Assembly: GCF_011806425.1 (NCBI RefSeq)
Contig: NZ_JAATOV010000005.1
Span: 1-64,000 of the forward strand
DNA: 64,000 nt
From: Thalassospira lucentensis
GTDB lineage: Bacteria > Pseudomonadota > Alphaproteobacteria > Rhodospirillales > Thalassospiraceae
Reading direction: 5' to 3'
Part shown: one piece after another, positions 48,568-64,000 of the stretch
Numbering within the stretch: position 1 is the stretch's first letter
Layout: every line of letters starts with the position of its first letter
The notes under the pieces: generated by a model
What the model saw: only the letters and a program-made list of their open reading frames with translations
The model's database searches: none
Told to the model about the DNA's origin: nothing
Position numbers and translations under genes: made by a program

Positions 48568-48608
48568 GCGGCGCGGTTACGTCTTTGGCGGTTTATTGGA
48601 TTGATTCT

Positions 48609-48645
48609 AAGCCGGGCTGCATGTTGTGGCCCGGCTTTGTTTTTG
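48609..48645 (+). terminator. Rho-independent terminator after the YdfG-like gene
   Basis: A perfect 9-bp stem (48609-48617 with 48629-48637) has an 11-base loop and is followed by TTTGTTTTT. Confidence 0.85.
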
Positions 48646-48753
48646 TGCCGGGATAATGTTTGCGAAGATTACCCGCGCGCAGGTTTTGCTTTTCCATCGC
48701 GGCTGAACTAAGCTTTTACAAAATAAAAGTTATGTATCAGCGGAGAAGCATCG

Positions 48754-50184
48754 ATGAGATCGACCGCATTGGATGAAACCAATGGCGCAAAGCCGCCCGC
48801 GGGCAATGATGACAGTTTCGCTGGGCCGGGGCCGGAGTTTGGTCCGTGGTTGGAAAAGGCATCGATACTGGTTGTCGATGACGAACCGGGCATGCGCAAC
48901 TTTTTGGTCCGCACCCTTGGCGCACGTGCCAAACGCGTCGAGGAAGCCGCCGATTGCGAAGAAGCGACCAAGAAGCTTGATGAACATCATTTTGATGTCG
49001 TGATCTTAGACAACATCATGCCGGGCAAAAGCGGTGTTGAATGGCTGACCGAGCAACGCGAAATCGGCTTTTTCTCTGACGCGATTTTGATGACCGCCTA
49101 TGCCGATCTCGATACCGCGATTAAGGCGTTGCGCGCGGGTGCGGTGGATTTTGTTTTAAAACCATTTCGATCCAACCAGATCCTGAACGCGGTTGCGCGG
49201 TGTTTGGACCGGATGCGGTTGCGCCGTGAAAACCATGTGTTGCGCCATGAATTGCGCGCAACGTCCGATCACGTGTTGCTGCGTGATGAGCTGATTGGCT
49301 ATTCCCCGCAAATTCAGGAAATCCGCGAAACCATTGCCCGTGTGGCACCGCTGCCAACTTCGATCCTGATTTCCGGGCAAAGCGGTACGGGCAAGGAAGT
49401 TACCGCCCGTTCGTTGCATGCATTATCGGATCGCGCGGAAAAGCCGTTCGTGCCGATCAACTGTGCCGCCATTCCGTCTGAGATGATCGAAGCCGAATTG
49501 TTTGGCCATGTCAAAGGCGCGTTTACCGGCGCGCAATCCACACGAGATGGTCTTTTCATGCATGCGCAGGGCGGAACCCTGTTTTTGGATGAGGTCGGCG
49601 AATTGTCGCTTGCCACCCAAAGCAAGCTTTTGCGCGCGATCGAAAGCCGCCGTATCCGCCCTGTTGGGGCAGAGCGCGAAGCACCGGTCGATTTGCGGTT
49701 TGTCTTTGCCACCAATGCCGATCTTGAGGCGGAAGTCGAAGCCGGGCGGTTCCGAGCGGATCTGTTTTACCGCATCAATGTCATGCATATCGAAATGCCA
49801 CCGCTTCATGAACGCGGTGATGATGTGTTGGAACTTGCCAATCTGTTTATGGACAAATTGTCCAAACAGCTTGCCGTGCGCCAAGTCCCGATGGATGGGG
49901 CGGTGCGCGCCGGGCTGACGCGCTATGGCTGGCCGGGGAATGTGCGTGAATTGCGCAACTTGATCGAACGGACCTTGATCCTTGGCCGGTTCCCCGATGA
50001 GTTTCGCGACGATCGCGCCGAACAAGGCGCGCAAGGGGATGGCGACGAAACGCTTGATGAAATGGAACGGCGTCACATTTTGGCGATGCTGCATAAAACC
50101 GGGGGCAATCGCAATGAAGCATCCCGGCGACTTGGCGTGTCGCGCAAAACAATTGATCGCAAATGCGCAAGCTGGGATCTTTGA
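48754..50184 (+). CDS. NtrC-family sigma-54-dependent response regulator
   Basis: A three-part activator (476 aa): receiver domain (about 37-150, phosphorylated Asp86 in VILDNIMPGKSG), AAA+ domain with Walker A SGQSGTGKE and intact GAFTGA loop for sigma-54 contact, and a C-terminal Fis-type helix-turn-helix (NRNEASRRLGVSRKTIDRK). Resembles DctD. It shares its stop with the kinase start (TGATG), so the two are co-translated. A sigma-54 promoter with tandem upstream palindromes is found before the OFA transporter gene 3 kb downstream, its likely target. Confidence 0.92.
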   Translation: MRSTALDETNGAKPPAGNDDSFAGPGPEFGPWLEKASILVVDDEPGMRNFLVRTLGARAKRVEEAADCEEATKKLDEHHFDVVILDNIMPGKSGVEWLTEQREIGFFSDAILMTAYADLDTAIKALRAGAVDFVLKPFRSNQILNAVARCLDRMRLRRENHVLRHELRATSDHVLLRDELIGYSPQIQEIRETIARVAPLPTSILISGQSGTGKEVTARSLHALSDRAEKPFVPINCAAIPSEMIEAELFGHVKGAFTGAQSTRDGLFMHAQGGTLFLDEVGELSLATQSKLLRAIESRRIRPVGAEREAPVDLRFVFATNADLEAEVEAGRFRADLFYRINVMHIEMPPLHERGDDVLELANLFMDKLSKQLAVRQVPMDGAVRAGLTRYGWPGNVRELRNLIERTLILGRFPDEFRDDRAEQGAQGDGDETLDEMERRHILAMLHKTGGNRNEASRRLGVSRKTIDRKCASWDL

Positions 50185-52196
50185 TGAAGCCGTTTGGTCA
50201 CTCGGCCTCGGCGCGTCCAAAACGTACACGCTCGGTACGCTTTAAGCTGCTGGCGATTGCGTTGTTGCCGACTTTGGTGATTTTGCCATTGTTGCTTGGC
50301 GTGATGATGGTGCGGTGGAATTCAAAGTTTGACGCCCTTCTGACATCCAAGGTCAGTGGTGACCTGACGATTGCGCGGCAGTACTTCACCCATATTCTTG
50401 AAAATACCGGCGAACAAATCCAATCATTGGGGCAATCGGTTGCCTTTCGCACGGTTTTGACCGCAGGCGACCCGGATGGCGTCAGTCAATTGCTTGCGCG
50501 CCGCCAGCAGGATATGGGGCTAGATTTCCTGTATCTGATCGATGGTGCGTCTGAGGGTACGAAAAACGGGGCAGATGGCACGTCGCATTGGCCGGTTATT
50601 ACATCGGCGCTTGCCGGGCGGTCATCGACCAATATCGATATTTTCAGCAATGCCGATCTTGGCAAAATATCACCCGATTTGGCAAAACGTGCGCGCATTG
50701 ATTTGGTCGAAACGCCCAATGCGCCCGCCACCACCCGCGATGCCGAAACGCGGGGCATGGTTGTCCATTCTGCCAGTCACATTGATCTGCCTGATGGTGG
50801 GGACGGGGTTTTGGTCGGCGGTATTTTGCTTAATCAGAATTTGGCGTTTATCGATACGATCAACGATCTTGTTTACCGCCAAAGCAGCCTGCCCGAAGGC
50901 AGTCAGGGGACGGCGACCCTGTTCCTAGATGATGTGCGGATCAGCACCAATGTTCGTCTGTTTGCCGAACGCCGTGCCTTGGGTACGCGGGTTTCTGACG
51001 TGGTGCATCAAGCCGTCCTAGAAGACGGCAAGGTCTGGCTGGATCGGGCGTTTGTGGTCAATGACTGGTACATATCGGCTTATGAACCGATCAAGGACAG
51101 CTTTGGCAAGCGGGTCGGGATGCTTTATGTCGGGTTCCTTGAGGCACCTTTTGCGCAGACCAAATTTGAAACGCTGCTGATTATCATTGGGGCGTTTTTG
51201 TTTGTCGCGGTGTTGTCCGTTCCGATCTTCTTGCGCTGGGCACGGGGGATTTTCAAACCGCTGGAACGCATGACAAACACCATTGGTCGGGTGGAAGCCG
51301 GCGATTTTTCGGCACGGACCAACCTACATCAGGTGCAGGACGAAATTTCTTTGGTCGCAGAGCATCTTGATGATTTGCTTGATCAGGTGCAGGAACGCGA
51401 TAAACGCCTGCGGGCATGGAATGATCAACTGAATGCAAGGGTCGATGCACGCACACGCGAGCTTCGCGAAGCCAACCAGCAACTAGAAGCCACCACCAAA
51501 CAACTGATTATGTCCGAAAAGCTGGCGGCAATTGGTGAAATTACCGCCGGTGTGGCGCATGAAATCAACAATCCGGTTGCCGTGCTTCAGGGGAATTTGG
51601 ACCTGTTGCGTGATTTGATGGGCGAACATGGCAAGATCGCCGCGACCGAGTTCCGCCTGATTGACGAGCAAGTCAATCGCATCAACCTGATCGTCACCAA
51701 GCTTTTGCAATTTGCCAAACCCGAAGAATATGCAGGGTTCGTCGAACGTCATGTGGTCGGACAGGTGATCGATGATTGCCTGCCCCTTGTTCAGCATTTG
51801 TTGGGCAAGGCCGACATTGAAGTCATCCGAAACAGCACAGCCGCCCGTTTGGTGTTGATGAACCGTACTGAATTACAACAGGTTCTGGTCAATTTGATGG
51901 TCAATGCCCTGCATGCCATGCCCCAAAACGGCCAATTGACCCTGATGGATGCCGATGTTGATCTTGACGGCAAGCCGGGCATCGAAATCACGGTGCGCGA
52001 TACCGGCACGGGGATTGAGGCCGACGCGCTAAATCGGATTTTCGATCCGTTCTATACCACCAAACGCCGGGAGGGGACCGGCCTTGGCTTGTCGATCAGC
52101 AAAACCTTGATTGATCGACAAGGCGGGCAGATGCGCGTGGAAAGCACGCCCGGCGAAGGCACCACATTTACCATCTGGCTGCCCGAAGCAGATTAA
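50184..52196 (+). CDS. Membrane sensor histidine kinase (DctB-like)
   Basis: A transmembrane kinase (670 aa) with a first helix (about 22-44), a large periplasmic cache-like sensor (about 45-320), a second helix (about 328-350), HAMP, coiled coil, HisKA with His459 in GVAHEINNP, and an ATPase domain with NALHAMP, DTGTGIEAD and GTGLGLSISK. It partners with the response regulator encoded just upstream. DctB-type sensors bind small carboxylates outside the membrane; the ligand here is not known. Confidence 0.92.
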   Translation: MKPFGHSASARPKRTRSVRFKLLAIALLPTLVILPLLLGVMMVRWNSKFDALLTSKVSGDLTIARQYFTHILENTGEQIQSLGQSVAFRTVLTAGDPDGVSQLLARRQQDMGLDFLYLIDGASEGTKNGADGTSHWPVITSALAGRSSTNIDIFSNADLGKISPDLAKRARIDLVETPNAPATTRDAETRGMVVHSASHIDLPDGGDGVLVGGILLNQNLAFIDTINDLVYRQSSLPEGSQGTATLFLDDVRISTNVRLFAERRALGTRVSDVVHQAVLEDGKVWLDRAFVVNDWYISAYEPIKDSFGKRVGMLYVGFLEAPFAQTKFETLLIIIGAFLFVAVLSVPIFLRWARGIFKPLERMTNTIGRVEAGDFSARTNLHQVQDEISLVAEHLDDLLDQVQERDKRLRAWNDQLNARVDARTRELREANQQLEATTKQLIMSEKLAAIGEITAGVAHEINNPVAVLQGNLDLLRDLMGEHGKIAATEFRLIDEQVNRINLIVTKLLQFAKPEEYAGFVERHVVGQVIDDCLPLVQHLLGKADIEVIRNSTAARLVLMNRTELQQVLVNLMVNALHAMPQNGQLTLMDADVDLDGKPGIEITVRDTGTGIEADALNRIFDPFYTTKRREGTGLGLSISKTLIDRQGGQMRVESTPGEGTTFTIWLPEAD

Positions 52197-52266
52197 GCAC
52201 AACCCGCTTTGGTGCCAGACGGATTTTATGTGTCGATAAGCGACAAGCTCATTGCGGGGCGTGGGT

Positions 52267-52815
52267 TTAGCTTTCGCCGCGCAACCATTCCTTTTTCAGG
52301 ATGGCATATTGATAGGTGTTTTCGTATTTCGGCGTGCCGTCCGGGTTGTTGATAAAGGAAATAAATTCCACAAAGCAGCCTTCTTTGCGCATCCCAAGTT
52401 TTTCGCACAGCTTTTGTGAATTGAAATTGTCTTCCTCGACATAGGCATGAAGCCGCCGTGCGTCGCGTTGGGTAAACAAATACTTGAACAACGCACGCGC
52501 ACTTTCAGTGGCGTATCCCTTGCCTTGCACCTTTTCGTTGAAGTTCCATCCCACGGAATAGCTATCAGCTTGCTGCTTATCATCTTGATGGAGCATCAGC
52601 TCACCAATCAACGCGCCTGTATCTTTGAGGCATACGGCAAGATAAGACACATCGTCTGCGCGCTTTTTGGCTTTTTCCTTGGCCTGGGCCAATGTTGTGA
52701 CTTTATCGCACATAAAGCAATTTACCCGCGGGTTCGAGATATACTCAAACAGCTCGGCGGCATCGTCTTCTTCAAAGCGCCTGATAATCAATCGATCGGT
52801 CACGATGTGGGGCAT
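52267..52815 (-). CDS. GNAT-family (RimJ/RimL-like) N-acetyltransferase
   Basis: An acetyl-CoA-dependent acetyltransferase of 182 aa with start TDRLIIRRFEEDDAAELFEYISN and the later GWNFNEKVQGKGYATESARALFKYLF acetyl-CoA loop (split as V-Q-G-K-G-Y-A). AAGGA lies 6 bases before the ATG at 52815. Its substrate cannot be told. It is convergent with the histidine kinase gene and divergent from the transporter gene. Confidence 0.88.
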   Translation of the reverse strand: MPHIVTDRLIIRRFEEDDAAELFEYISNPRVNCFMCDKVTTLAQAKEKAKKRADDVSYLAVCLKDTGALIGELMLHQDDKQQADSYSVGWNFNEKVQGKGYATESARALFKYLFTQRDARRLHAYVEEDNFNSQKLCEKLGMRKEGCFVEFISFINNPDGTPKYENTYQYAILKKEWLRGES

Positions 52816-52950
52816 GGGATCCTTCGTTTCTGGGGCTGTCGTCAAAATACGCGCATCTGATCTTAAGGGCGTTAAAGCCAGAATGAAAATGTTATCGCCG
52901 CCAGGGTGATCCGCTTCACCGTTTGGGCTTTCGCGTTGAAATTGCTGCAT

Positions 52951-53014
52951 GTGCGAGTGGACATTTTGTCCAACTGCACTTTTTTCTAATTCAAATGTTT
53001 GGACATTTTGTCCC
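52951..53014 (+). promoter_or_regulatory. Tandem palindromic upstream activator sites
   Basis: Two copies of a palindrome lie at 52958-52972 (TGGACA-TTT-TGTCCA, perfect) and 53000-53014 (TGGACA-TTT-TGTCC). Centres are 42 bases apart, four helical turns, so both face one side of DNA. The first also has outer GTGC/GCAC arms (52951-52954, 52976-52979). They lie about 141 and 99 bases upstream of the predicted sigma-54 start, the usual place for NtrC-type activators. Confidence 0.8.
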
Positions 53015-53080
53015 GGCGCGTGCGGTGCAGCACGATGGTCCCCCGTGTAAAAATGACAGAAAATCAATCAAAACGCGCAA

Positions 53081-53096
53081 TGGCATGGCGATTGCT
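53081..53096 (+). promoter_or_regulatory. Sigma-54 (-24/-12) promoter of the OFA transporter gene
   Basis: TGGCAT-GGCGA-TTGCT matches the sigma-54 element TGGCAC-N5-TTGCW in all but one base, with GG at -24 and GC at -12 correctly spaced. Transcription would start near 53107, about 93 bases before the ATG. An AATCAA half-core like that of IHF sites lies at 53062-53067. Confidence 0.8.
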
Positions 53097-53199
53097 GCCG
53101 TCATAGTCGGACGTCTGCCCCTGTTTGCTGTGCACCATTGCACCAAACATGATGGTTCAGGCGCAACGGAAGTTATTAAGACCGGGAGGGGATAACTTT

Positions 53200-54927
53200 A
53201 TGTTTGATCGGCTCAAGAAAGAACACATCGTCGCAGGCGATGATTTTAACCGCTGGAAAGTGCCGCCAGCATCCATCGCCATTCATCTATGCATCGGTTC
53301 TGTATATGCCTGGAGTATCTTTAACCCGCCTTTGATCAAGGAATTTGGCGTGGTTGCAGCAAGCTCGGGCGATTGGGGTTTGCAGTCCGTTGTCTGGATT
53401 TTCTCTGTTGCCATTGTGTTTCTTGGTCTTGCCGCGGCATTTGGCGGCAAATGGCTTGAAGAAGTCGGTCCACGCATGGTCGGCGTTGTCGCCGCATTCT
53501 GCTGGGGCGGGGGCTTTATCATTGGCGGGCTTGGCATTGCTGCCCACCAACTTTGGCTGGTTTATCTTGGATATGGTGTGATTGGTGGCTGCGGGCTTGG
53601 CCTTGGCTATGTTTCACCGGTCTCAACCCTGATCCGTTGGTTCCCGGATCGGCGCGGCATGGCAACCGGCATGGCCATTATGGGCTTTGGCGGTGGTGCG
53701 ATGATCGCAACCCCGATCAAGGAAAGCCTGCTGTCGGTGTTCTATAAGGTGCCTGATTATCTCGGCCCGGAAAGTGCTGTAAACCTTGTCACCGAAGGCG
53801 GCAAGCGCATGGCAGAAGTCGGCGGCCAGATGGTTGAAGTCGTGGTTGCCGGTGCCGCACAGGTGGCAGCAGCCCCCGTGCCGATCGAAGAAGGTGTTTA
53901 TGTTGCCGGAACCGGTGATACCGGTGCGGCTGCGACCTTCTTTACCCTTGGTGTTGCGTATTTCATCGTCATGATTATTGCATCCTTCTCGTACCGTGTG
54001 CCACGTGAAGGCTGGCTGCCGGCTGGCTGGACGCCGCCGACCGCGGATGCCGCATCCAAACGCATGATCACGCATAACAACGTTCACATTGATCAGGCGC
54101 TTAAAACCCCGCAGTTCTATCTGCTGTGGATTGTGCTGTGCTTTAACGTGACGGCGGGCATCGGTGTGATTGGTGTTGCCAAAACCATGATGTTTGAAAT
54201 CTTTGGCACAACCTTGCCGCTGGTGGTCAACTCGGCCTTTGCGGCGACCTATGTGTTTATGATTTCGGTCTTTAACATGTGTGGCCGGTTCTTCTGGGCA
54301 TCTATTTCGGACTATATCGGGCGTAAGAACACCTACTATTGCTTCTTTATTCTCGGTATTGCGCTTTACCTGTCTATTCCGTTCTCGGCCGAACAGGTCA
54401 GCATCAATCCGGCTGTCACCTATCTTGTGATGTTCTATGCCGCGACCATGATCATCTTCACGATGTATGGCGGTGGCTTTGCAACCATTCCGGCCTATCT
54501 TGCGGATATTTTTGGCACCAAATATGTCGGTGGCATCCACGGTCGTCTTCTGACCGCATGGAGTACTGCTGGTGTTCTTGGTCCTTTGGCGATTACGCAG
54601 TTGCGTCAAAGCTCGGTCACCAGTTCGATTAAGGATCTGGCAGCCAAAATTGACCCGGCGGCGTTCCAAGCCAAATTTGGTGCGGGTATCGACCAGCTTG
54701 ACCAGTTGGTGGCGGCAAAAACCGTGACCATTGGTCGTCTGATGGAAATCGCACCGGCTGGTACGGTCGATCCGACGTCCAGTCTGTATAACACCACCAT
54801 GTATGCCATGGCGGCCCTGCTGGCGATTGCGTTGATTGCCAACAAACTGGTCCGTCCGATTCATGACAAGCATTACATGGAAACACAAGAAAGCGGTTCT
54901 GGCGCCAAAGCAGCGTCCGAAGCGTAA
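53200..54927 (+). CDS. OFA-family (oxalate/formate antiporter-type) MFS transporter with large loops
   Basis: A 12-helix major facilitator of the OFA family (575 aa). The N-terminal helix 1 SIAIHLCIGSVYAWSIFNPPL is typical of the family. It is longer than OxlT (about 420 aa): about 65 extra residues lie between helices 5 and 6 and about 60 between helices 11 and 12, both on the predicted periplasmic side. GGGAGGGG precedes the ATG at 53200. It is driven by the sigma-54 promoter upstream and ends at a hairpin. Substrate is unknown; position before the formate dehydrogenase operon hints at formate, oxalate or another small carboxylate. Confidence 0.88.
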   Translation: MFDRLKKEHIVAGDDFNRWKVPPASIAIHLCIGSVYAWSIFNPPLIKEFGVVAASSGDWGLQSVVWIFSVAIVFLGLAAAFGGKWLEEVGPRMVGVVAAFCWGGGFIIGGLGIAAHQLWLVYLGYGVIGGCGLGLGYVSPVSTLIRWFPDRRGMATGMAIMGFGGGAMIATPIKESLLSVFYKVPDYLGPESAVNLVTEGGKRMAEVGGQMVEVVVAGAAQVAAAPVPIEEGVYVAGTGDTGAAATFFTLGVAYFIVMIIASFSYRVPREGWLPAGWTPPTADAASKRMITHNNVHIDQALKTPQFYLLWIVLCFNVTAGIGVIGVAKTMMFEIFGTTLPLVVNSAFAATYVFMISVFNMCGRFFWASISDYIGRKNTYYCFFILGIALYLSIPFSAEQVSINPAVTYLVMFYAATMIIFTMYGGGFATIPAYLADIFGTKYVGGIHGRLLTAWSTAGVLGPLAITQLRQSSVTSSIKDLAAKIDPAAFQAKFGAGIDQLDQLVAAKTVTIGRLMEIAPAGTVDPTSSLYNTTMYAMAALLAIALIANKLVRPIHDKHYMETQESGSGAKAASEA

Positions 54928-54969: not shown

Positions 54970-55162
54970 GTCGGGTTGGTGACATATGTTTACCAATCCG
55001 CGCCCTGTTGCAGGAATAACCTTTTTGTTCGTAGGGACAATCGGTTATCCTGCAGCAACGCAAAAAGATTACACCATCTCGCTGTCCGGTCCTGTCCAAC
55101 AGCATTCCCAGACAGCAGACAAAGTCACAAAGCGCATCGCGTTACGCGGTGCCGGATACAAA

Positions 55163-56068
55163 ATGATCGATAAACTCGAAATGTTTATGGTGCTCGCCCG
55201 CGAGCAACATTTTGGCCATGCCGCCGAACATTGCGGTGTGACGCAACCAACTCTGTCTAGTGCATTGCGCCAGCTTGAAGACCATCTTGGTGTCGTGCTG
55301 GTCAAACGTGGATCGCGCTATCAGGGACTAACCCCCGAAGGCGAACGTGTTCTTGAATGGGCACGCCATATTGTCGGCAGTACCCGATCCATGCGCGATG
55401 AAATGCGCGCCATGCGCTTTGGCCTGACCGGGCAGGTGCAGATTGCGGTGATCCCGACGGCCCTTTCGATGGTTCATGAACTCACCACGCCGTTTCGCGA
55501 AAAGCATCCCGATGTGACCTTTGCGGTGCTCTCGCGGACATCAACCGAAATTCAGTCCTTGCTTGATAACCTGCAAATCGATGCGGGGATTACCTATATT
55601 GATAATGAACCGCTGGGGCGGGTGACATCAATTCCGCTTTATCAGGAACGGTATCATCTGGTGACGTCAAACTTGGATGACTTTGCCGACTGCGACAGCA
55701 TCACTTGGCAAGAAGCCGCCCAATTGCCGCTGTGTTTGTTGACCCCGGATATGCAAAACCGCCGGATCATTGATCAGCACCTTGATGCCGCCGGGGCCAA
55801 AGTCAGCGCGACGTTGGAAAGTGATTCGATGATTGCCCTGTTTACCCACGTTCAGACCGGAAATTGGGCAAGCATCATGCCCGAAAAAATGGTCGAAAGT
55901 TTTGGGATGCGCGACCGGGTTAAATCCATGCCGATCATTGAACCCGATGCGACACATACGGTCGGACTGATCGCCGCCAAACGCGAACCCGCGACGCCGG
56001 TTGTGTCGGCCCTGTTAAAAGAAGCCAAGCTGTTTTCCGACCGCGAACCGACCCAAAAGCCGGTTTGA
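55163..56068 (+). CDS. LysR-family transcriptional regulator
   Basis: An LTTR of 301 aa. The N-terminal helix-turn-helix (KLEMFMVLAREQHFGHAAEHCGVTQPTLSSALRQLE, here given by region 4-38) is followed by an effector-binding domain. ATG at 55163 gives the standard length; the frame runs open 177 bases upstream without family-like sequence. It lies directly upstream of fdsGBA on the same strand, as the FdsR-type regulator does in other formate dehydrogenase loci, and probably controls that operon. Confidence 0.9.
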   Translation: MIDKLEMFMVLAREQHFGHAAEHCGVTQPTLSSALRQLEDHLGVVLVKRGSRYQGLTPEGERVLEWARHIVGSTRSMRDEMRAMRFGLTGQVQIAVIPTALSMVHELTTPFREKHPDVTFAVLSRTSTEIQSLLDNLQIDAGITYIDNEPLGRVTSIPLYQERYHLVTSNLDDFADCDSITWQEAAQLPLCLLTPDMQNRRIIDQHLDAAGAKVSATLESDSMIALFTHVQTGNWASIMPEKMVESFGMRDRVKSMPIIEPDATHTVGLIAAKREPATPVVSALLKEAKLFSDREPTQKPV

Positions 56069-56110: not shown

Positions 56111-56214
56111 CGGGATGGCTTTATTGAACACCCGGTGTGTTTGACCGACACTAATAAAAATAACAAACCAAAAGAACAAAGAATTCAATAGACTGCTAAG
56201 TGAGAGAGGCTTGC

Positions 56215-56688
56215 ATGTCGACTAATACCGAGGAACACAGCGTCCGCGTTGAGGCTATTTGTGACCGTATGGCGGCCCTTGAAGGTCCGCTTTTGCCGAT
56301 CCTGCATGAAGTGCAGGAAGAGTTCGGCCATATTCCCGAAGGCGCGCTTCAGACGATATCCAAGAAACTCAATCTCAGCCGGGCCGAAGTCCACGGGGTT
56401 GCCAGTTTTTATCATGACTTCCGCGAAGAAAAAGCAGGCAAGCATGTGATTAAAATCTGTCGGGCGGAAGCCTGTCAGTCGATGGGGGCCGATGATCTTG
56501 GCGATCATGCGCGTCACCGTTTGAAAGTCGATTGGGCGCAAACCACCAACGATGAAAAAGTCACCCTTGAAGCTGTGTTCTGTCTTGGCCTATGTGCCTG
56601 CGCACCGGCTGCCATGGTCGATGGCAAGGTTGTTGGTCGACTTAACAAAGACCGCATCAACCAAATTCTTGATGAGGTGGCATCATGA
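56215..56688 (+). CDS. fdsG: NAD-dependent formate dehydrogenase gamma subunit
   Basis: A NuoE-like 2Fe-2S subunit (157 aa) with cluster cysteines 82, 87, 123 and 127 (CRAEAC, CLGLC). GAGAGG lies 6 bases before the ATG at 56215; an in-frame GTG at 56200 is less likely. It overlaps fdsB by 4 bases and passes electrons toward the NAD site. Confidence 0.93.
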   Translation: MSTNTEEHSVRVEAICDRMAALEGPLLPILHEVQEEFGHIPEGALQTISKKLNLSRAEVHGVASFYHDFREEKAGKHVIKICRAEACQSMGADDLGDHARHRLKVDWAQTTNDEKVTLEAVFCLGLCACAPAAMVDGKVVGRLNKDRINQILDEVAS

Positions 56689-58241
56689 GCATCAAGGTTT
56701 ACGTCCCGATTGATTCCGGTTCTGTTGCGCTGGGTGCGGATGATGTGGCAACCGCAATTGCCAAAAAGGCCGAAAGCACCGGGGCCGACGTTAAAGTCGT
56801 TCGTAACGGTTCGTTTGGCATGTATTGGCTTGAACCGATGGTCGAAGTCGAAACCGATCACGGTCGTGTTGCCTATGGCCCGGTAAGCGCCGATGATGTC
56901 GATACCCTGTTTGCATCTGATTTTCTGACCGGTGGGGAGCATAAGCTTTATCTTGGCCGGACAGAAAACATTCCATTCCTTAAAAGTCAGACACGCCTGA
57001 CCTTCCAGCGTTGTGGCTTTATCGATCCGGTGTCGCTGGAAGATTACCGCAAATATGATGGCCTGACCGGGCTTGAAAATGCGCTTAAAATGACCGACGA
57101 GGAAATCGTCACGGCGGTCACTGATAGTGGCCTTCGCGGGCGCGGTGGGGCTGGTTTCCCTACGGGCATTAAATGGAAAACGGTGCGCGAAGCACCTGCT
57201 GATCAGAAATACATTGTCTGTAACGCCGATGAAGGCGACAGCGGCACCTTTGCCGATCGCATGATCATGGAAGGCGAGCCATTTGTTCTGATCGAAGGCA
57301 TGATCATTGCAGGTTTGGCGACCGGCGCGACCAAGGGATATGTCTATACCCGGTCGGAATATCCGGCCGCCATTCGCATCATGAACGAGGCCATCGAAGT
57401 CGCCCGTGCTGCGGGTGTTCTTGGCGATAACATCCTTGGTTCTGGCAAGGTGTTTGACATGGAAGTCCGCATGGGTGCGGGCGCCTATGTCTGTGGCGAG
57501 GAAACATCGCTTCTAAATAGTATGGAAGGCAAACGCGGCGTTGTCCGTGCCAAGCCACCATTGCCCGCCCTTGAAGGTTTCCTTGGCCGCCCGACGGTTG
57601 TTAATAATGTTATCTCGCTTTGTTCGGTGCCGGTGATCCTTGAAAAGGGGGCGCAATATTACCGTGATTTCGGTATGGGCCGGTCCCGCGGGACCATTCC
57701 CATTCAGATTGCAGGCAACGTTAAACATGGCGGTCTTTACGAGGTTGGCTTTGGCCTGACCCTTGGCGAGATTGTCGAACAGATCGGCGGCGGCACAGCC
57801 AGTGGTCGACCGGTAAAGGCCGTTCAGGTTGGTGGTCCGTTGGGGGCGTATTTCCCCAAGGAAATGTTCGATACGCCGTTTGATTACGAAGAATTTGCCA
57901 AGCGTGATGGGTTGATTGGGCATGCCGGTGTTGTTGTGTTTGACGACACGGTTGATCTGATGAAGCAGGCCCGTTTTGCCATGGAATTCTGCGCGATTGA
58001 ATCGTGTGGCAAATGTACGCCATGTCGTATCGGATCGATCCGGGGGACCGAAGTTGTCGATAAACTGGCACGCGGTGAAGACCCTGACTTGCAGATCGAA
58101 TTGCTGACCGATCTTTGTGAAACCATGAAGTTTGGTTCGTTGTGCGCCCTGGGCGGCTTTACCCCGTATCCGGTGATGAGCGCACTGACCCATTTCCCTG
58201 ATGATTTCAAGCCACGTGCGCTTGACGTAGCCGCGGAGTGA
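56685..58241 (+). CDS. fdsB: NAD-dependent formate dehydrogenase beta subunit
   Basis: A NuoF-like flavin subunit (518 aa) that reduces NAD+. It starts with a thioredoxin-like 2Fe-2S-type fold, then NAD motif RGRGGAGFPTGIKW, FMN motif CNADEGDSGTFADR, and the 4Fe-4S binding ESCGKCTPCRIGS with a later cysteine in SLCALGG. Standard length for FdsB, which combines NuoE-like and NuoF parts. Confidence 0.93.
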   Translation: MSIKVYVPIDSGSVALGADDVATAIAKKAESTGADVKVVRNGSFGMYWLEPMVEVETDHGRVAYGPVSADDVDTLFASDFLTGGEHKLYLGRTENIPFLKSQTRLTFQRCGFIDPVSLEDYRKYDGLTGLENALKMTDEEIVTAVTDSGLRGRGGAGFPTGIKWKTVREAPADQKYIVCNADEGDSGTFADRMIMEGEPFVLIEGMIIAGLATGATKGYVYTRSEYPAAIRIMNEAIEVARAAGVLGDNILGSGKVFDMEVRMGAGAYVCGEETSLLNSMEGKRGVVRAKPPLPALEGFLGRPTVVNNVISLCSVPVILEKGAQYYRDFGMGRSRGTIPIQIAGNVKHGGLYEVGFGLTLGEIVEQIGGGTASGRPVKAVQVGGPLGAYFPKEMFDTPFDYEEFAKRDGLIGHAGVVVFDDTVDLMKQARFAMEFCAIESCGKCTPCRIGSIRGTEVVDKLARGEDPDLQIELLTDLCETMKFGSLCALGGFTPYPVMSALTHFPDDFKPRALDVAAE

Positions 58242-58246
58242 GAACG

Positions 58247-61126
58247 ATGTCCTTGATCAAAGAAGTCGACTACGGAACCCCCGCCGCCAAATCCGAAAAA
58301 ACGGTTACCCTGACCATTGATGGCAACGACGTCACCGTGCCCGAAGGCACATCGGTGATGCGTGCCTCGATGGAGGCGGGCATTCAAATCCCCAAATTGT
58401 GTGCGTCCGACATGGTCGATGCATTTGGATCGTGCCGTTTGTGCCTAGTAGAGGTCGAAGGCCGCAACGGCACACCGTCATCCTGCACCACACCGGCTGC
58501 TGATGGCATGGTGGTCAAAACCCAGACAGAGCGCCTTAAGAAAATCCGCAAAGGCGTGATGGAACTGTACATTTCCGACCATCCGCTTGATTGCCTGACC
58601 TGTGCAGCCAATGGCGATTGCGAATTGCAGGATATGGCCGGGGCCGTTGGCCTGCGCGATGTGCGCTATGGCTATGACGGCGGCAACCATGTGAAGGTGC
58701 GTGATAACGGCGAAGAAAATCCGCGCTATATGGCAAAGGATGAAACCAACCCGTATTTCACCTATGACCCGTCAAAATGCATTGTGTGTTCGCGCTGTGT
58801 GCGGGCCTGCGAGGAAGTGCAGGGGACCTTTGCGCTGACCATCGAAGGACGTGGTTTTGAAAGCCGCGTTTCGCCGGGGATGCACGAAGACTTCCTTGAT
58901 TCCGAATGTGTGTCGTGTGGCGCCTGCGTTCAGGCCTGCCCAACCGCGACCTTGCAGGAAAAATCGATCATTGAAATCGGCCAGCCGGAACATTCGGTTG
59001 TCACCACCTGTGCGTATTGCGGGGTCGGTTGTTCGTTTAAGGCCGAAATGCGCGGCGAAGAATTGGTGCGCATGGTGCCGTATAAAGACGGCAAAGCCAA
59101 CCGTGGCCATTCCTGTGTTAAGGGGCGGTTTGCGTATGGTTATGCCAACCATAAAGACCGCATCCTGAACCCGATGATCCGCGAAAGTACCTCGGATCCA
59201 TGGCAGGAAGTCAGTTGGGAAGAAGCCCTTCGATATACGGCTGATAAATTCCGCGCCATTCAGGCTGAACATGGCAAGGGTGCGATTGGTGGCATTACCT
59301 CATCGCGTTGCACGAATGAGGAAACCTTCCTTGTTCAAAAACTGATCCGTGCTGGATTTGGCAATAATAACGTCGATACCTGTGCGCGTGTTTGCCATTC
59401 GCCGACCGGCTATGGTTTGAAAACCACCTTTGGGACATCTGCCGGGACGCAGGATTTTGACAGTGTCGAACATACCGATGTGGTTATTCTTATCGGGGCC
59501 AACCCGACCGACGGCCACCCGGTATTTGCATCGCGTTTGAAAAAGCGTCTGCGCGAAGGGGCGAAACTGATCGTGATTGATCCGCGGCGTATTGATCTTG
59601 TGCGCAGCCCACATATCGAGGCCGTCGCCCATGTTGCCTTGCGCCCGGGCACCAACGTTGCGGTTCTGACATCCTTGGCACATGTGATCGTGACCGAAGG
59701 CCTGTTTGACGAGGCTTTTGTTCGCGAACGCTGTGACTGGGATGAATTCCAGGATTGGGCGGCGTTTGTTTCCGATCCAAAACACAGCCCCGAAGCCATC
59801 GCCGAAATGACCGGTGTTGATCCGGAAACCATGCGCACCGCCGCCAGGACTTTTGCCACCGGTGGAAATGGCGCGATTTATTACGGGCTTGGTGTTACCG
59901 AACACAGCCAAGGTTCGACCACGGTGATGGCGATTGCCAACCTTGCCATGGCGACAGGTAACCTTGGGCGTCCGGGCGTTGGGGTTAATCCGCTGCGCGG
60001 TCAGAACAACGTGCAGGGGGCCTGTGATATGGGGTCCTTCCCGCATGAACTGCCGGGCTATCGCCATATTCAAGACAGCACCACCCGCGATATTTTCGAA
60101 GATATCTGGGGTGTCAAACTGGATGATGAGCCGGGCTTGCGTATTCCCAATATGCTTGATGCCGCCGTCGAAGGCACGTTTAAGGGGATCTACATTCAGG
60201 GCGAAGACATCCTGCAATCAGACCCCGATACCAAACATGTGGCGGCTGGTTTGGCGGCAATGGAATGCGTTGTGGTGCATGACCTGTTTTTGAATGAAAC
60301 AGCCAACCATGCCCATGTGTTCCTGCCCGGTTCGACCTTCCTTGAAAAGGATGGCACATTCACCAATGCGGAACGCCGTATCAACCGCGTCCGCCGTGTG
60401 ATGACCCCACTTAACGGGTTTGCCGATTGGGAAGTGACACAGAACCTTGCGCGCGCGATGGGTCTTGATTGGAATTATACCCATCCATCGCAGGTAATGG
60501 ACGAAATTGCCGCCACCACGCCAAGCTTTGCCAATGTGGATTATGACCTTCTTGAACGCGAAGGATCGGTTCAGTGGCCATGTAATGACAAGGCGCCAAA
60601 AGGCACCCCGGTCATGCATATTGATGGTTTTGTGCGCGGTAAGGGCAAGTTTGTGGTCACGGAATATGTCGCCACCGACGAACGTACCGGGCCGCGCTTC
60701 CCGCTTCTTCTGACCACGGGGCGTATTCTTACGCAGTACAATGTCGGGGCACAGACCCGTCGTACGGAAAATACCGCCTGGCACAAAGAAGACTTGCTGG
60801 AAATCCATCCCCATGACGCCGAACAGCGTGGTGTGCGTGATGGCGATTGGATCCGTCTGGCATCGCGATCCGGTGAAACGTCGCTTCGGGCGAAGATCAC
60901 CGACCGTGTCGCACCGGGGGTGGTTTACACAACCTTCCACCATCCGGGCACGCAGGCCAACGTGATCACCACCGACTTTACCGACTGGGCGACGAACTGC
61001 CCGGAATATAAGGTGACCGCGGTGCAGGTTTCGTCCAGCAACGGTCCAAGCGACTGGCAGGTCGAATATGATCGTCAGGCCGAACAATCGCGTCGGATCA
61101 AACCGCGCATTGATGCCGCAGAATAG
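58247..61126 (+). CDS. fdsA: NAD-dependent formate dehydrogenase alpha subunit
   Basis: The molybdenum subunit (959 aa) that oxidises formate to CO2. A NuoG-like N-terminus carries a 2Fe-2S (CASDMVDAFGSCRLCLVEVE region) and several 4Fe-4S motifs (CIVCSRCVRACEE, CVSCGACVQACP, CAYCGVGC). The active-site cysteine is Cys383 followed by His384 in CARVCHSPTG, so this is a cysteine rather than selenocysteine enzyme. GGAG lies 9 bases before the ATG at 58247; a GTG at 58238 overlapping the fdsB stop is the alternative start. Confidence 0.95.
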   Translation: MSLIKEVDYGTPAAKSEKTVTLTIDGNDVTVPEGTSVMRASMEAGIQIPKLCASDMVDAFGSCRLCLVEVEGRNGTPSSCTTPAADGMVVKTQTERLKKIRKGVMELYISDHPLDCLTCAANGDCELQDMAGAVGLRDVRYGYDGGNHVKVRDNGEENPRYMAKDETNPYFTYDPSKCIVCSRCVRACEEVQGTFALTIEGRGFESRVSPGMHEDFLDSECVSCGACVQACPTATLQEKSIIEIGQPEHSVVTTCAYCGVGCSFKAEMRGEELVRMVPYKDGKANRGHSCVKGRFAYGYANHKDRILNPMIRESTSDPWQEVSWEEALRYTADKFRAIQAEHGKGAIGGITSSRCTNEETFLVQKLIRAGFGNNNVDTCARVCHSPTGYGLKTTFGTSAGTQDFDSVEHTDVVILIGANPTDGHPVFASRLKKRLREGAKLIVIDPRRIDLVRSPHIEAVAHVALRPGTNVAVLTSLAHVIVTEGLFDEAFVRERCDWDEFQDWAAFVSDPKHSPEAIAEMTGVDPETMRTAARTFATGGNGAIYYGLGVTEHSQGSTTVMAIANLAMATGNLGRPGVGVNPLRGQNNVQGACDMGSFPHELPGYRHIQDSTTRDIFEDIWGVKLDDEPGLRIPNMLDAAVEGTFKGIYIQGEDILQSDPDTKHVAAGLAAMECVVVHDLFLNETANHAHVFLPGSTFLEKDGTFTNAERRINRVRRVMTPLNGFADWEVTQNLARAMGLDWNYTHPSQVMDEIAATTPSFANVDYDLLEREGSVQWPCNDKAPKGTPVMHIDGFVRGKGKFVVTEYVATDERTGPRFPLLLTTGRILTQYNVGAQTRRTENTAWHKEDLLEIHPHDAEQRGVRDGDWIRLASRSGETSLRAKITDRVAPGVVYTTFHHPGTQANVITTDFTDWATNCPEYKVTAVQVSSSNGPSDWQVEYDRQAEQSRRIKPRIDAAE

Positions 61127-61221: not shown

Positions 61222-61446
61222 ATGGCACCTGATAAGCTTGTCTATATGGCCAATCAGATCGCGACCTTTTTTAAATCCAAACCCCACGACGAAGGGGTTG
61301 AAGGGGTTGCAGGACATATCAATGATTTTTGGGAACCGCGCATGCGCAAACAGCTGTTCGACTTGATTGCCGATGGGCATGACGGGTTCGATCCGCTGGT
61401 GCTTGAAGCCGCCCCGTCGATCCGCAAAGTCAAAGAAACCGCATGA
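61222..61446 (+). CDS. fdsD: Formate dehydrogenase delta subunit
   Basis: A small helical subunit (74 aa) of the FdsGBAD enzyme, recognised from KLVYMANQIATFFKS and the FWEPRMRKQLFDLI segment. It lies between fdsA and fdhD and overlaps fdhD by 4 bases. Some other operons have fdhD (fdsC) before fdsD, so the order is swapped here. Confidence 0.9.
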   Translation: MAPDKLVYMANQIATFFKSKPHDEGVEGVAGHINDFWEPRMRKQLFDLIADGHDGFDPLVLEAAPSIRKVKETA

Positions 61447-62252
61447 AAACCAAATCATCAGACAATTATATTGTCGATGGCCGGGACATTGATATGGCGC
61501 GCGCCGTATCACGCGATGACGGCAATGATGATGCCCCCATGGTCTTGCAGCCGGAAATCCCGGCTGCATTGACGTTTAATGGGCAATCCCATGCGGTGAT
61601 GATGGTGTCGCCCCATGACCTAGAAGATTTCATGGTTGGGTTTGCGCTGTCAGAAGGTATTGCCGATGACGTGTCGCAGATCACGCTGCGGGATGTGCGC
61701 AAAACCCTTCAGGGCTATGTGATTGAGGCGGACTTGCACGAAGACGTGTTTGATCGGCTTGAAGATCGTCAACGTACCCTTGAAGGGCGATCTGGTTGCG
61801 GATTGTGCGGTGTGCAGTCATTGGATGCGGTGTCGATGGATAAAATCGGCACGGTGACGCCGGGCAATATGGCGCAGGATATTGTGCTGCGTGCGATTGA
61901 TGCGCTGCCCGATCATCAAACCCGTAACCGCGAAGGCGGCGGGTTGTTGCATGCCAGTGCCTTTGTCGATGGTAGCGGTAACATCATCCTAACCCGCGAA
62001 GATATCGGACGGCACAACGCGCTTGATAAAGTATTGGGCGCGGTTGCGCGGCAGGGGATTGATACCACCGGCGGGTTTGTGTTGATGACCAGCCGCTGTT
62101 CATACGAAATCGTTACCAAGACCGTGCAATGTGGGGTCGGGGGGCTTGTGACCCTGTCTGGTCCCACCTTAACGGCGGTCAACTTGGCACGGAAAGCTGG
62201 ACTGACATTGATTTGCCGCGAACGGCGCGGGCTGTTTCGCCGCTTTGCCTAA
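61443..62252 (+). CDS. fdhD: Formate dehydrogenase accessory sulfurtransferase
   Basis: FdhD/FdsC (269 aa) hands sulfur to the molybdenum cofactor and is needed for formate dehydrogenase activity. The mobile loop motif GRSGCGLCG carries Cys119 and Cys122. The start overlaps fdsD by 4 bases, completing the operon. Confidence 0.94.
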   Translation: MKTKSSDNYIVDGRDIDMARAVSRDDGNDDAPMVLQPEIPAALTFNGQSHAVMMVSPHDLEDFMVGFALSEGIADDVSQITLRDVRKTLQGYVIEADLHEDVFDRLEDRQRTLEGRSGCGLCGVQSLDAVSMDKIGTVTPGNMAQDIVLRAIDALPDHQTRNREGGGLLHASAFVDGSGNIILTREDIGRHNALDKVLGAVARQGIDTTGGFVLMTSRCSYEIVTKTVQCGVGGLVTLSGPTLTAVNLARKAGLTLICRERRGLFRRFA

Positions 62253-62377: not shown

Positions 62378-64000
62378 TTAGCTTGGGATATATTCCTGGC
62401 TCCATGACTCACTCAGGTCGCCGGATTTCAGCATCATCTCAATTGCCTGATCGCCATAGCCCAATTCTTTGAGGATTGTGCGCGTTGATGTGCCAAACTT
62501 TTCCGAAGGGCTCAGGGCAACCACCTTTGAGCGTGTTGTTCGCACCGCGTATGGGTCAAGCTGAATGACCTCATGCCCGCTGGGATGATCGGGGTAGACT
62601 GAGAAGGAATAGCTTCCGCGGTCCGTACCCGGTGTCCCGTCCGCTTCGCGTGTGTTTTCCGCACGCAATGCATCAATGTTATCGCAGATCGCAGCCCCAA
62701 TATCAGCCGCATGCAGACGTTCAATCCATTCGTTTGCGGTCGTGGTCTGGAACGCTGTTGCCAGATAGATTGCCCGTTCTTCCAGCGGAATTTCAGGCAA
62801 TTCTTCAAGGCCTTCGACCTCGCGGAACCGAGGAAGATCTTCTTCATAGGCGCTTAGCAACACATAGGTGCCCGATGCCGTGCTGTAAAAGCGGTTAAGT
62901 TCATCATTGCCGTTGGTTTCCGGTCCCGACGGTTCGTCAAACAAGCCGCGTCCGCGGTAATCATAGGCAAAGGGTATTTGCAAAAGGCCGCTATTGGCGG
63001 TCAGTGATGTCCGGCCGCGCCCGATCCGACCAAACCGGTATTTCTGATACAACGCCGCCGCAACAGCCAAAGCACCGCCAAAGCCACACATGACATCGAT
63101 GGTCCCAACATGGGCGTGCTCTTCGGGGCGGTCCATGGCGCCGCCAAATCGCAACATGATGCCCGTTGCGGCCTGCACCAGATCGTCATAGCCGATATAG
63201 TCGGTACGCACGCCACGCTGAACGCCACTGAAACAATCCAGTTTGCAGAAAATGGCATTTGGATTGAGTTTGCGCAGGTTTTCCGCATCAAGACCCATCC
63301 GCTTGATCTGACTATCCGGGGCGTTCCAGATGATGACATCAACCGATTTAACCAGATCTTCGAATACCTTGCGGCCATGTTCGGATTTGATGTCTGCAAG
63401 GATCGACTTTTTGCCGCGCATTTGCGATAGGCCGTAAATGACGGTATTCCAGCTATCATAAAGCGGCACGGACGGATCCAGCTTGATGACTTCGGCGCCA
63501 AACCGTGCCAGGTAGCAGGCCGAATGCGGACCGGCAATGACGTTGCAAAGATCAAGTATCTTAACCCCGGAAAGCCAGCCTTCTTGCTCAATCGCGTCCG
63601 CTGGATCGGGAATCTCGGTCCGATGTTTTTTAAGGGTTTTAAGCGCCTCATTAAACTCTACCCAGCGACGCGGTTGGGGGTTAAGGGCTTCTTCGCCGCT
63701 TTCTTCCATCCAGACAACCGGGCCGGGCGTGGTCATTTCGCCATATTCCGGGTCCCATGTATCGATCATCAGACCGGAACCTTCAGCATATTCGTCATGA
63801 ATCCATTCCTGCAGCCAGCGCTGCGGCGCGCCCGGAATGCCGCCACGACCAAACATCTTTTTCCATTCGTGCGATGTGCGGGTCATGAAGACATCCTTCA
63901 TGCGCGCGGCAATCCTGTCCGCCCAATCTTTGGGCATCGGATAGACCCCAAGCGAGGTTTCAGACTCCCATTCGCTTTGCGGTTTGTAGGTGTCATCCTC
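62378..64000 (-). CDS. CaiB/BaiF (family III) CoA-transferase, tandem-domain, 5' end outside window
   Basis: The frame is open to the right edge, so only the C-terminal 540 residues are seen. About the first 135 look like the end of one CoA-transferase domain, then a second begins (GVKILDLCNVIAGPHSACYLARFGAEVIKLDP) and continues with GYDDLVQAATGIMLRFGG, where family III enzymes keep a catalytic aspartate. This suggests a fused two-domain protein rather than the usual 400-aa homodimer subunit. Such enzymes move CoA between carboxylic acids; the substrate is unknown. It is convergent with fdhD and separated by a hairpin. Confidence 0.85.
   Translation of the reverse strand, partial: EDDTYKPQSEWESETSLGVYPMPKDWADRIAARMKDVFMTRTSHEWKKMFGRGGIPGAPQRWLQEWIHDEYAEGSGLMIDTWDPEYGEMTTPGPVVWMEESGEEALNPQPRRWVEFNEALKTLKKHRTEIPDPADAIEQEGWLSGVKILDLCNVIAGPHSACYLARFGAEVIKLDPSVPLYDSWNTVIYGLSQMRGKKSILADIKSEHGRKVFEDLVKSVDVIIWNAPDSQIKRMGLDAENLRKLNPNAIFCKLDCFSGVQRGVRTDYIGYDDLVQAATGIMLRFGGAMDRPEEHAHVGTIDVMCGFGGALAVAAALYQKYRFGRIGRGRTSLTANSGLLQIPFAYDYRGRGLFDEPSGPETNGNDELNRFYSTASGTYVLLSAYEEDLPRFREVEGLEELPEIPLEERAIYLATAFQTTTANEWIERLHAADIGAAICDNIDALRAENTREADGTPGTDRGSYSFSVYPDHPSGHEVIQLDPYAVRTTRSKVVALSPSEKFGTSTRTILKELGYGDQAIEMMLKSGDLSESWSQEYIPS

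Follow-up and report, generated by a model that had tools for sequence, protein, structure and literature searches.

Organization of the locus

The 64,000-nucleotide stretch of Thalassospira DNA analysed here (the window, to which all positions refer; the genome searched, G000, has 4,496,213 bases) carries a two-component regulatory pair, a candidate sigma-54 promoter and the gene of an OFA-like carboxylate transporter. The role of the pair in the control of this transporter, and the signal to which it may respond, were studied by computational comparison. The features concerned are the following:

48754–50184, + strand: NtrC-type response regulator with receiver, AAA+ sigma-54 activator domain with GAFTGA and Fis-type helix-turn-helix (HTH) (Pfam Response_reg, Sigma54_activat, HTH_8)
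50184–52196, + strand: sensor histidine kinase with transmembrane (TM) helix, periplasmic Cache-type sensor, HAMP, HisKA and HATPase_c (Pfam)
50937–50987, + strand: codons of the predicted formate-contact residues R251, T254 and T267 (spacing 0/+3/+16)
52958–52972, unstranded: distal palindrome TGGACATTTTGTCCA, predicted regulator site (pattern and conservation)
53000–53013, unstranded: proximal palindrome TGGACATTTTGTCC, predicted regulator site (pattern and conservation)
53081–53096, + strand: sigma-54 -24/-12 element TGGCAT GGCGA TTGCT, with an implied start near 53107
53200–54927, + strand: OFA-like MFS carboxylate transporter, 575 amino acids (NCBIfam NF049980, PDB relatives)

The regulator unites in one protein the three domains of an NtrC-type activator, with an intact GAFTGA at residue 255, and the start codon of the adjacent kinase (ATG at 50184) overlaps its stop codon. 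RpoN is encoded in the genome, in such a way that both elements of a sigma-54-dependent system, the sigma factor and a conserved -24/-12 sequence at the target, were found. A preliminary description of this DNA had reported the promoter anatomy, the intact GAFTGA loop and the periplasmic sensor of the kinase, and all of them were recovered here: the TGGACATTTTGTCC palindromes begin at 52958 and 53000, a distance of exactly 42 bp, and the implied start at 53107 lies around 142 and 100 bp downstream of their centres.

The region upstream of the transporter was aligned in 28 Thalassospira loci, including that of the window, and the span 52940–53185 was scored. As many as 18 of the 20 half-site positions of the palindromes and all eight sigma-54 positions were invariant, whereas among the 218 other positions 10 were (Fisher p ~1e-24, a value that ignores shared ancestry), and the two half-site positions that vary show transitions, in 5 and 1 of the 28 loci, respectively. 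The same alignment indicates that the transporter start is the ATG at 53200 and not the TTG at 53125 of the longest open reading frame, because this ATG and a GGGAGG just upstream are kept in the 28 loci.

How far these motifs stand out from chance was also evaluated. A search of the + strand of the whole genome for the exact 12-letter sequence TGGACANNNTGTCC gave three places: the two promoter sites, and 49850 within the regulator open reading frame. With up to two mismatches the palindrome gave 19 matches in the window for 17 expected, and the sigma-54 pattern with up to one mismatch gave 24 for 19 expected, in such a way that the sigma-54 element is weak evidence by itself and gains weight from its conservation over the 28 loci. 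Genome-wide, 3–9 palindromes per genome were counted in 29 Thalassospira genomes versus 0–12 for a reversed-pattern control. This lack of excess led us to reject a genome-wide regulon in Thalassospira, the term "regulon" used in the preliminary description being too wide, and points to one promoter as the likely target.

The third exact palindrome (49850–49863) lies inside the coding sequence of the regulator. As a functional site it was discarded: it is present in only one of six Thalassospira loci compared (L156) and is probably a coincidence. Autoregulation of the regulator gene was likewise rejected, no palindrome being found within 48568–48753.

Conservation of the unit beyond the genus

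One genome of a sample of the class (G096) encodes a regulator 73% identical, a kinase 67% identical and a transporter 50–54% identical to those of the window, and the segment that separates its kinase from its transporter carries two palindromes and TGGCACGACCCTTGC. For a wider view, named genomes were scanned with the sensor alignment, which gave at least 583 relatives, and the best 80 were taken; most of these loci come from related genera and their counts are not independent. An OFA-like gene was present in 68 of them, formate dehydrogenase (FDH) genes in the stored flank in 52, and at least one of these in 77; the loci with neither were L188 and L227, cut by contig ends, and L169, which is not cut.

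Paired GGACA-N3-TGTCC sites with a sigma-54 element, allowing two mismatches in total, were found in 61 of the 68 loci with kinase and OFA-like gene (43 with none), whereas in 20 rounds of mononucleotide shuffling of the 68 not a single locus gave them. Among these 61 loci the palindromes are spaced 20–24 bp in 49, 42–43 bp in 10, and 13 and 19 bp once each, the 13-bp case (L185) having three palindromes. The distance from the start of the second palindrome to the -24 element is 64–69 bp in 53 loci, 80 bp in four and 88–90 bp in four. Since the palindrome spacings are near two and four helical turns, they suggest that two regulator dimers may sit on one face of the DNA.

The kinase sensor and its predicted ligand

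According to Pfam, the sensor of the kinase matches sCache_3_3 and Cache_3-Cache_2 (30 of 30 aligned sensors), its sCache_3_3 module being proximal to the membrane, below another module. An arginine and two threonines at 0/+3/+16 (R251, T254 and T267, counted from the Lys at 50187; one more if counted from the Met at 50184) were found by a relaxed regular expression in 110 of 110 kinase loci, which hold 104 distinct stretches. The spacing is that of R142, T145 and T158 of PacF, which affect formate binding according to the available text of a report in which the formate receptors PacF and McpF are assigned Cache_3-Cache_2 domains (PMC12501870). Another formate chemoreceptor, Atu0526, is given as sCache_3_2 in the accessible part of its report (PMC8698456), and in a survey of gut receptors, as far as its available text goes, one sCache_3_3 domain bound formate, and lactate or pyruvate was the ligand of five sCache_2 domains (PMC12415202).

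A profile of the 30 sensors was compared with solved chains, and up to an E-value of 1 only two domains, both of chemoreceptors, 8py1 (0.0018) and 8py0 (0.0083), were matched, the R/T/T residues being aligned without gaps to both. The title of 8py1 is "Sensor domain of Asticcacaulis benevestitus chemoreceptor in complex with formate". A model of the sensor (residues encoded by 50250–51200) was obtained with pLDDT 86 and pTM 0.81, and the best 50 Foldseek rows showed a moderate double-Cache likeness, with TM-scores by query length of 0.22–0.46. Among the matches listed, LuxQ came first and Tlp1, a formate chemoreceptor by the title of its report (PMC10294657), second; DctB sensors were included (3by9, E 3e-5), and 8py1 had the highest identity, 25%. 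The signal of the pair is probably periplasmic formate.

The transporter

The preliminary description had assigned the gene after the promoter to the OFA family, and an OFA-like MFS protein was indeed found, homologous to 6g9x (an L-lactate transporter and the nearest solved relative, E 1e-23) and to OxlT (8hpj, E 1e-17). Its score for TIGR00890, the OFA subfamily, was 171 bits, below the cut-off of 374.85, and for NF049980, the SfMCT L-lactate transporter, 323 bits with a cut-off of 320, a Bradyrhizobium relative reaching 319.

Residues equivalent to those of OxlT were counted on the alignment. In the available text on OxlT, the TM8 arginine binds one carboxylate and Lys355, essential for oxalate, the second, and both Arg272 and Lys355 are said to be conserved in the OFA family. 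In our transporter the TM8 arginine is kept and the position of Lys355 is occupied by Trp, in such a way that only one half of this pair is present. The same Trp appeared in 108 of 109 OFA stretches, with Leu in the other, extracted by regular expression from 108 of 121 loci (the 13 loci with no match being 12 OFA-less ones and the truncated L166; some species are twice in the set). A Trp at this position would favour a monocarboxylate as substrate. Around 60 extra residues separate the aligned N- and C-terminal halves in comparison with OxlT and SfMCT.

As a separate observation, the alphaproteobacterial locus L136 (9406–14657) carries three tandem OFA-like genes of 572 amino acids each, and the TAA flagged in two of them is the end of these open reading frames.

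Formate dehydrogenase genes in the neighbourhood

The other features of the region are these:

52267–52818, - strand: GNAT acetyltransferase, between kinase and promoter (Pfam Acetyltransf_3)
55160–56068, + strand: LysR-type regulator ahead of fds (Pfam)
56200–56688, + strand: fdsG, formate dehydrogenase gamma subunit (NF004638, 234 bits, cut-off 198)
56685–58241, + strand: fdsB-like NADH-binding subunit (Complex1_51K, NADH_4Fe-4S)
58238–61126, + strand: fdsA, formate dehydrogenase alpha subunit (TIGR01591, 950 bits, cut-off 666)
61443–62252, + strand: fdhD, formate dehydrogenase accessory protein (TIGR00129, 166 bits, cut-off 141)

The GNAT gene is outside the switch, because in several related loci the end of the kinase directly precedes the palindromes. 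Adjoining fdhD on the opposite strand (62378–63937) there is a CaiB/BaiF-type CoA-transferase, which scored 87 bits against the Frc cut-off of 504 and by that cut-off is not a formyl-CoA transferase.

The 52 FDH-flanked loci show different gene orders. The fds genes lie downstream of the transporter in 12 and upstream in 11, and 19 Bradyrhizobium loci have Mo-cofactor genes upstream and fdsA-type genes downstream; the remaining cases are eight with a membrane FDH upstream and no OFA-like gene, one with fds directly downstream and no OFA-like gene (L216), and L166, counted through a 40% match on the opposite strand. The eight membrane-FDH loci (L212, L215, L219, L223, L224, L228, L230 and L231) belong to the 12 OFA-less loci, and in them the pair follows the membrane FDH operon, directly so in L219, where the alpha subunit scored 480 bits (below the TIGR01591 cut-off of 666) and the gamma subunit 166 bits (above the TIGR01583 cut-off of 116). 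The HTH of the regulator is much alike in this group. In a Roseibium locus (L190), the membrane FDH, regulator, kinase, OFA-like gene, LysR gene and fdsGBA are found all together.

Within the genus, the transporter is present in 27 of the 28 other Thalassospira genomes, in G022 as two pieces, and a kinase ortholog of at least 73% identity also in 27 of 28 (a kinase tally of 29 of 29 includes other kinases that matched less well). Both kinase and transporter are missing in G002. Its locus (L241, G002:C24:184000-199900, 15.9 kb) has in order an aminotransferase, TauE, SDR, LysR and fdsGBA, and no regulator, kinase, transporter or palindrome was found in these 15.9 kb, the regulator having been looked for at this locus only. 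The adjacency of SDR, LysR and fds in G002 thus represents a natural absence of the cassette at the locus. Since fds is kept there in the absence of the cassette, and fdsB is present in 29 of 29 Thalassospira genomes, fds is independent of the pair and the transporter. In G019 and G024 the kinase lies around 9 and 10 kb from the transporter, and the palindromes are still before the transporter (L034, L039).

A proposed formate switch and its alternatives

Having in mind these data, we consider it likely that the locus works as a one-promoter formate switch, in which a formate-sensing pair would drive the OFA-like transporter through sigma-54. Periplasmic formate would bind the membrane-proximal sCache_3_3 module of the kinase, which would phosphorylate its co-translated NtrC-type partner. 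Two regulator dimers would then bind side by side on the GGACA-N3-TGTCC pair, whose sites are separated by approximately whole helical turns, and oligomerise through the AAA+ domain, in such a way that GAFTGA could contact the RNA polymerase-sigma-54 complex at TGGCAT-N5-TTGC and the OFA-like gene would be transcribed from near 53107. The transporter would import formate, to be oxidised by the neighbouring NAD-type formate dehydrogenase; the Thalassospira fds operon itself, which has no such sites, is probably under the LysR gene ahead of it. The promoter anatomy, the linkage, the joint absence in G002 and the conservation in distant genera all fit the control of the OFA-like gene by the pair that had been proposed before. 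The idea that the sensor detects the substrate of the transporter is supported indirectly, since both sides point to formate; this ligand is an addition to the earlier reading, which stands.

Several observations weigh against this formate switch. The complete unit is missing in seven of the 68 OFA loci (L197, L199, L218, L220, L222, L225 and L229), among which the gammaproteobacterial L218 has palindromes 32 bp apart and no canonical -24/-12 element. In L169 (693–774) and L216 (1597–1699) the sites precede not an OFA-like gene but an apparent Liv-type ABC transporter: a sigma-54 element free of mismatches lies 65–66 bp after a palindrome (exact in L169, with one mismatch in L216, where a second palindrome with two mismatches lies 87 bp before the element), and the same-strand genes that follow encode a Peripla_BP_6 binding protein (L216), a 449-amino-acid open reading frame (L169) and Liv-type permeases. 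In the eight membrane-FDH loci the search for a palindrome with sigma-54 element gave nothing, a partial test on the available sequence, which before the FDH alpha gene amounts to 0.8–2.7 kb in six of them and to next to nothing in two; the sigma-54 pattern alone gave one match in those six, with a mismatch (L223). The kinase is present in four of 289 genomes drawn from the class, all of them with FDH alpha, but FDH alpha is common (165 of 289), which makes their co-occurrence across the class uninformative.

On the side of the sensor, the confidence of the model is moderate near the R/T/T loop (block means 61–83), and 39 other chains outrank 8py1 in Foldseek (rank 40). The change of R115 to Ala in Atu0526 raised the affinity for formic acid and abolished chemotaxis, according to the accessible part of the report (PMC8698456); therefore, the arginine is no simple test of binding and, by analogy, may have a role in signalling rather than in holding the ligand. 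Regarding the transporter, its score is only 3 bits over the cut-off of the L-lactate carrier family NF049980, and in 25 of the 80 loci it is found with no FDH gene in the stored flank.

These two last points, together with an L-lactate transporter as the nearest solved relative, would suit the same wiring with a short monocarboxylate other than formate, such as L-lactate or pyruvate, as the compound sensed and transported, and with an FDH link that is incidental. Such a reading is unlikely: in the available text of the gut survey those sCache-type domains that bound lactate or pyruvate were sCache_2, and one sCache_3_3 domain bound formate (PMC12415202), the best PDB sequence match of our sensor was solved with formate, and the linkage with FDH recurs in differing gene orders.

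The pair could also sense formate with formate dehydrogenase, or redox genes in general, as its main object of control and the transporter as one among several targets, as the position of the pair after the membrane FDH operon in eight OFA-less loci and the Mo-cofactor genes preceding it in Bradyrhizobium L203 and related loci would suggest. We give this little credit, since no exact palindrome was found before fds in the window, the membrane-FDH stretches examined showed no palindrome with sigma-54 element, and Thalassospira G002 keeps fds while the pair is absent.

Finally, an oxalate system, in which the transporter would swap oxalate for formate like its homolog OxlT and the kinase would sense oxalate or the product formate, would suit FDH neighbours as part of a formate-yielding pathway but is very improbable, because the Lys355 given as essential for oxalate in the available text on OxlT is Trp here, no oxalyl-CoA decarboxylase above cut-off was found in the genome (best 197 of 739 bits) and the nearby CoA-transferase is not Frc, so that oxalate degradation was discarded.

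Returning to the formate switch, with somewhat less assurance we are inclined to see in it a hitherto undescribed family of two-component systems dedicated to formate as a nutrient, present in alphaproteobacteria including rhizobia, in which the Arg/Thr module of formate chemoreceptors would have been reused at sigma-54 promoters of formate carriers, the carrier swapped for an ABC transporter in a few lineages, and the complete cassette acquired or lost in one piece in one Thalassospira. Both fermentation and C1 metabolism commonly yield formate. If true, the proposal would define the signal, the promoter, the binding site and the target of a response to formate as a nutrient, testable in Thalassospira or laboratory rhizobia; it would also give a function to a kinase-regulator pair that occurs, in the 80 loci, under some 30 genus names, and suggest a substrate for an OFA-like branch that alphaproteobacteria of small genomes have as well. 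The arrangement is common to many other alphaproteobacteria, including root-nodule bacteria.

Comparison with known systems

DctB/DctD, which responds to C4-dicarboxylates, consists of a Cache-type sensor kinase and an NtrC-type regulator acting at paired sites on a sigma-54 promoter before a carboxylate transporter, and it is adjoined by a DctA-type C4-dicarboxylate transporter. Our pair shares with it the periplasmic Cache-type kinase, the NtrC-type regulator, the paired sites and the sigma-54 promoter of a transporter, and DctB sensors appeared in the Foldseek list; by contrast, it has an sCache_3_3 sensor, an OFA-like MFS neighbour instead of DctA, and FDH neighbours. No DctB/DctD or MctS/MctR family was among the best 25 NCBIfam matches of 110 for the regulator and of 90 for the kinase, with no check that the library includes a DctB or DctD model, and the best among the matches listed were AtoC at 382 bits (cut-off 714) and AtoS at 201 bits (cut-off 646), both too low. 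The label "DctB/DctD-like" of the preliminary description holds only as a likeness of class.

OxlT and SfMCT are homologous to the transporter and share its TM8 arginine, but differ in the residue at OxlT Lys355 and in the absence of the extra stretch. Two-component control of a neighbouring monocarboxylate transporter is also described in rhizobia for MctS/MctR and RpuS/RpuR with MctP; in the available texts, however, the substrates of MctP are pyruvate, lactate and alanine, a Cache2 domain is given for MctS, and RpuS is of the SLC5/STAC kind.

The formate sensors that we found in the accessible literature are chemoreceptors and the acetate/formate kinase BarA. In the available texts, BarA/UvrY of E. 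coli responds to acetate or formate in protonated form, its target being the Csr system (PMC8639471, PMC5770552), and for this reason we do not present our pair as the first two-component formate sensor; besides BarA/UvrY, none was recognised in a literature search that left subscription papers mostly uncovered. As far as those texts go, both systems are two-component kinases with a Cache-fold periplasmic domain and a formate response, a predicted one in our pair, but BarA has hydrophobic and hydroxylated pocket residues and Csr as target, whereas our pair has an Arg/Thr set and, as its predicted target, the promoter of a transporter. PacF, McpF and the Asticcacaulis receptor 8py1 have, according to the available descriptions, the same Cache_3-Cache_2 or a related single-Cache ligand domain, and PacF and 8py1 the same R-x2-T-x12-T residues. 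PacF binds formate at the distal module, whereas the formate-type module is membrane-proximal here, and in contrast to the formate chemoreceptors our sensor belongs to a histidine kinase acting on transcription.

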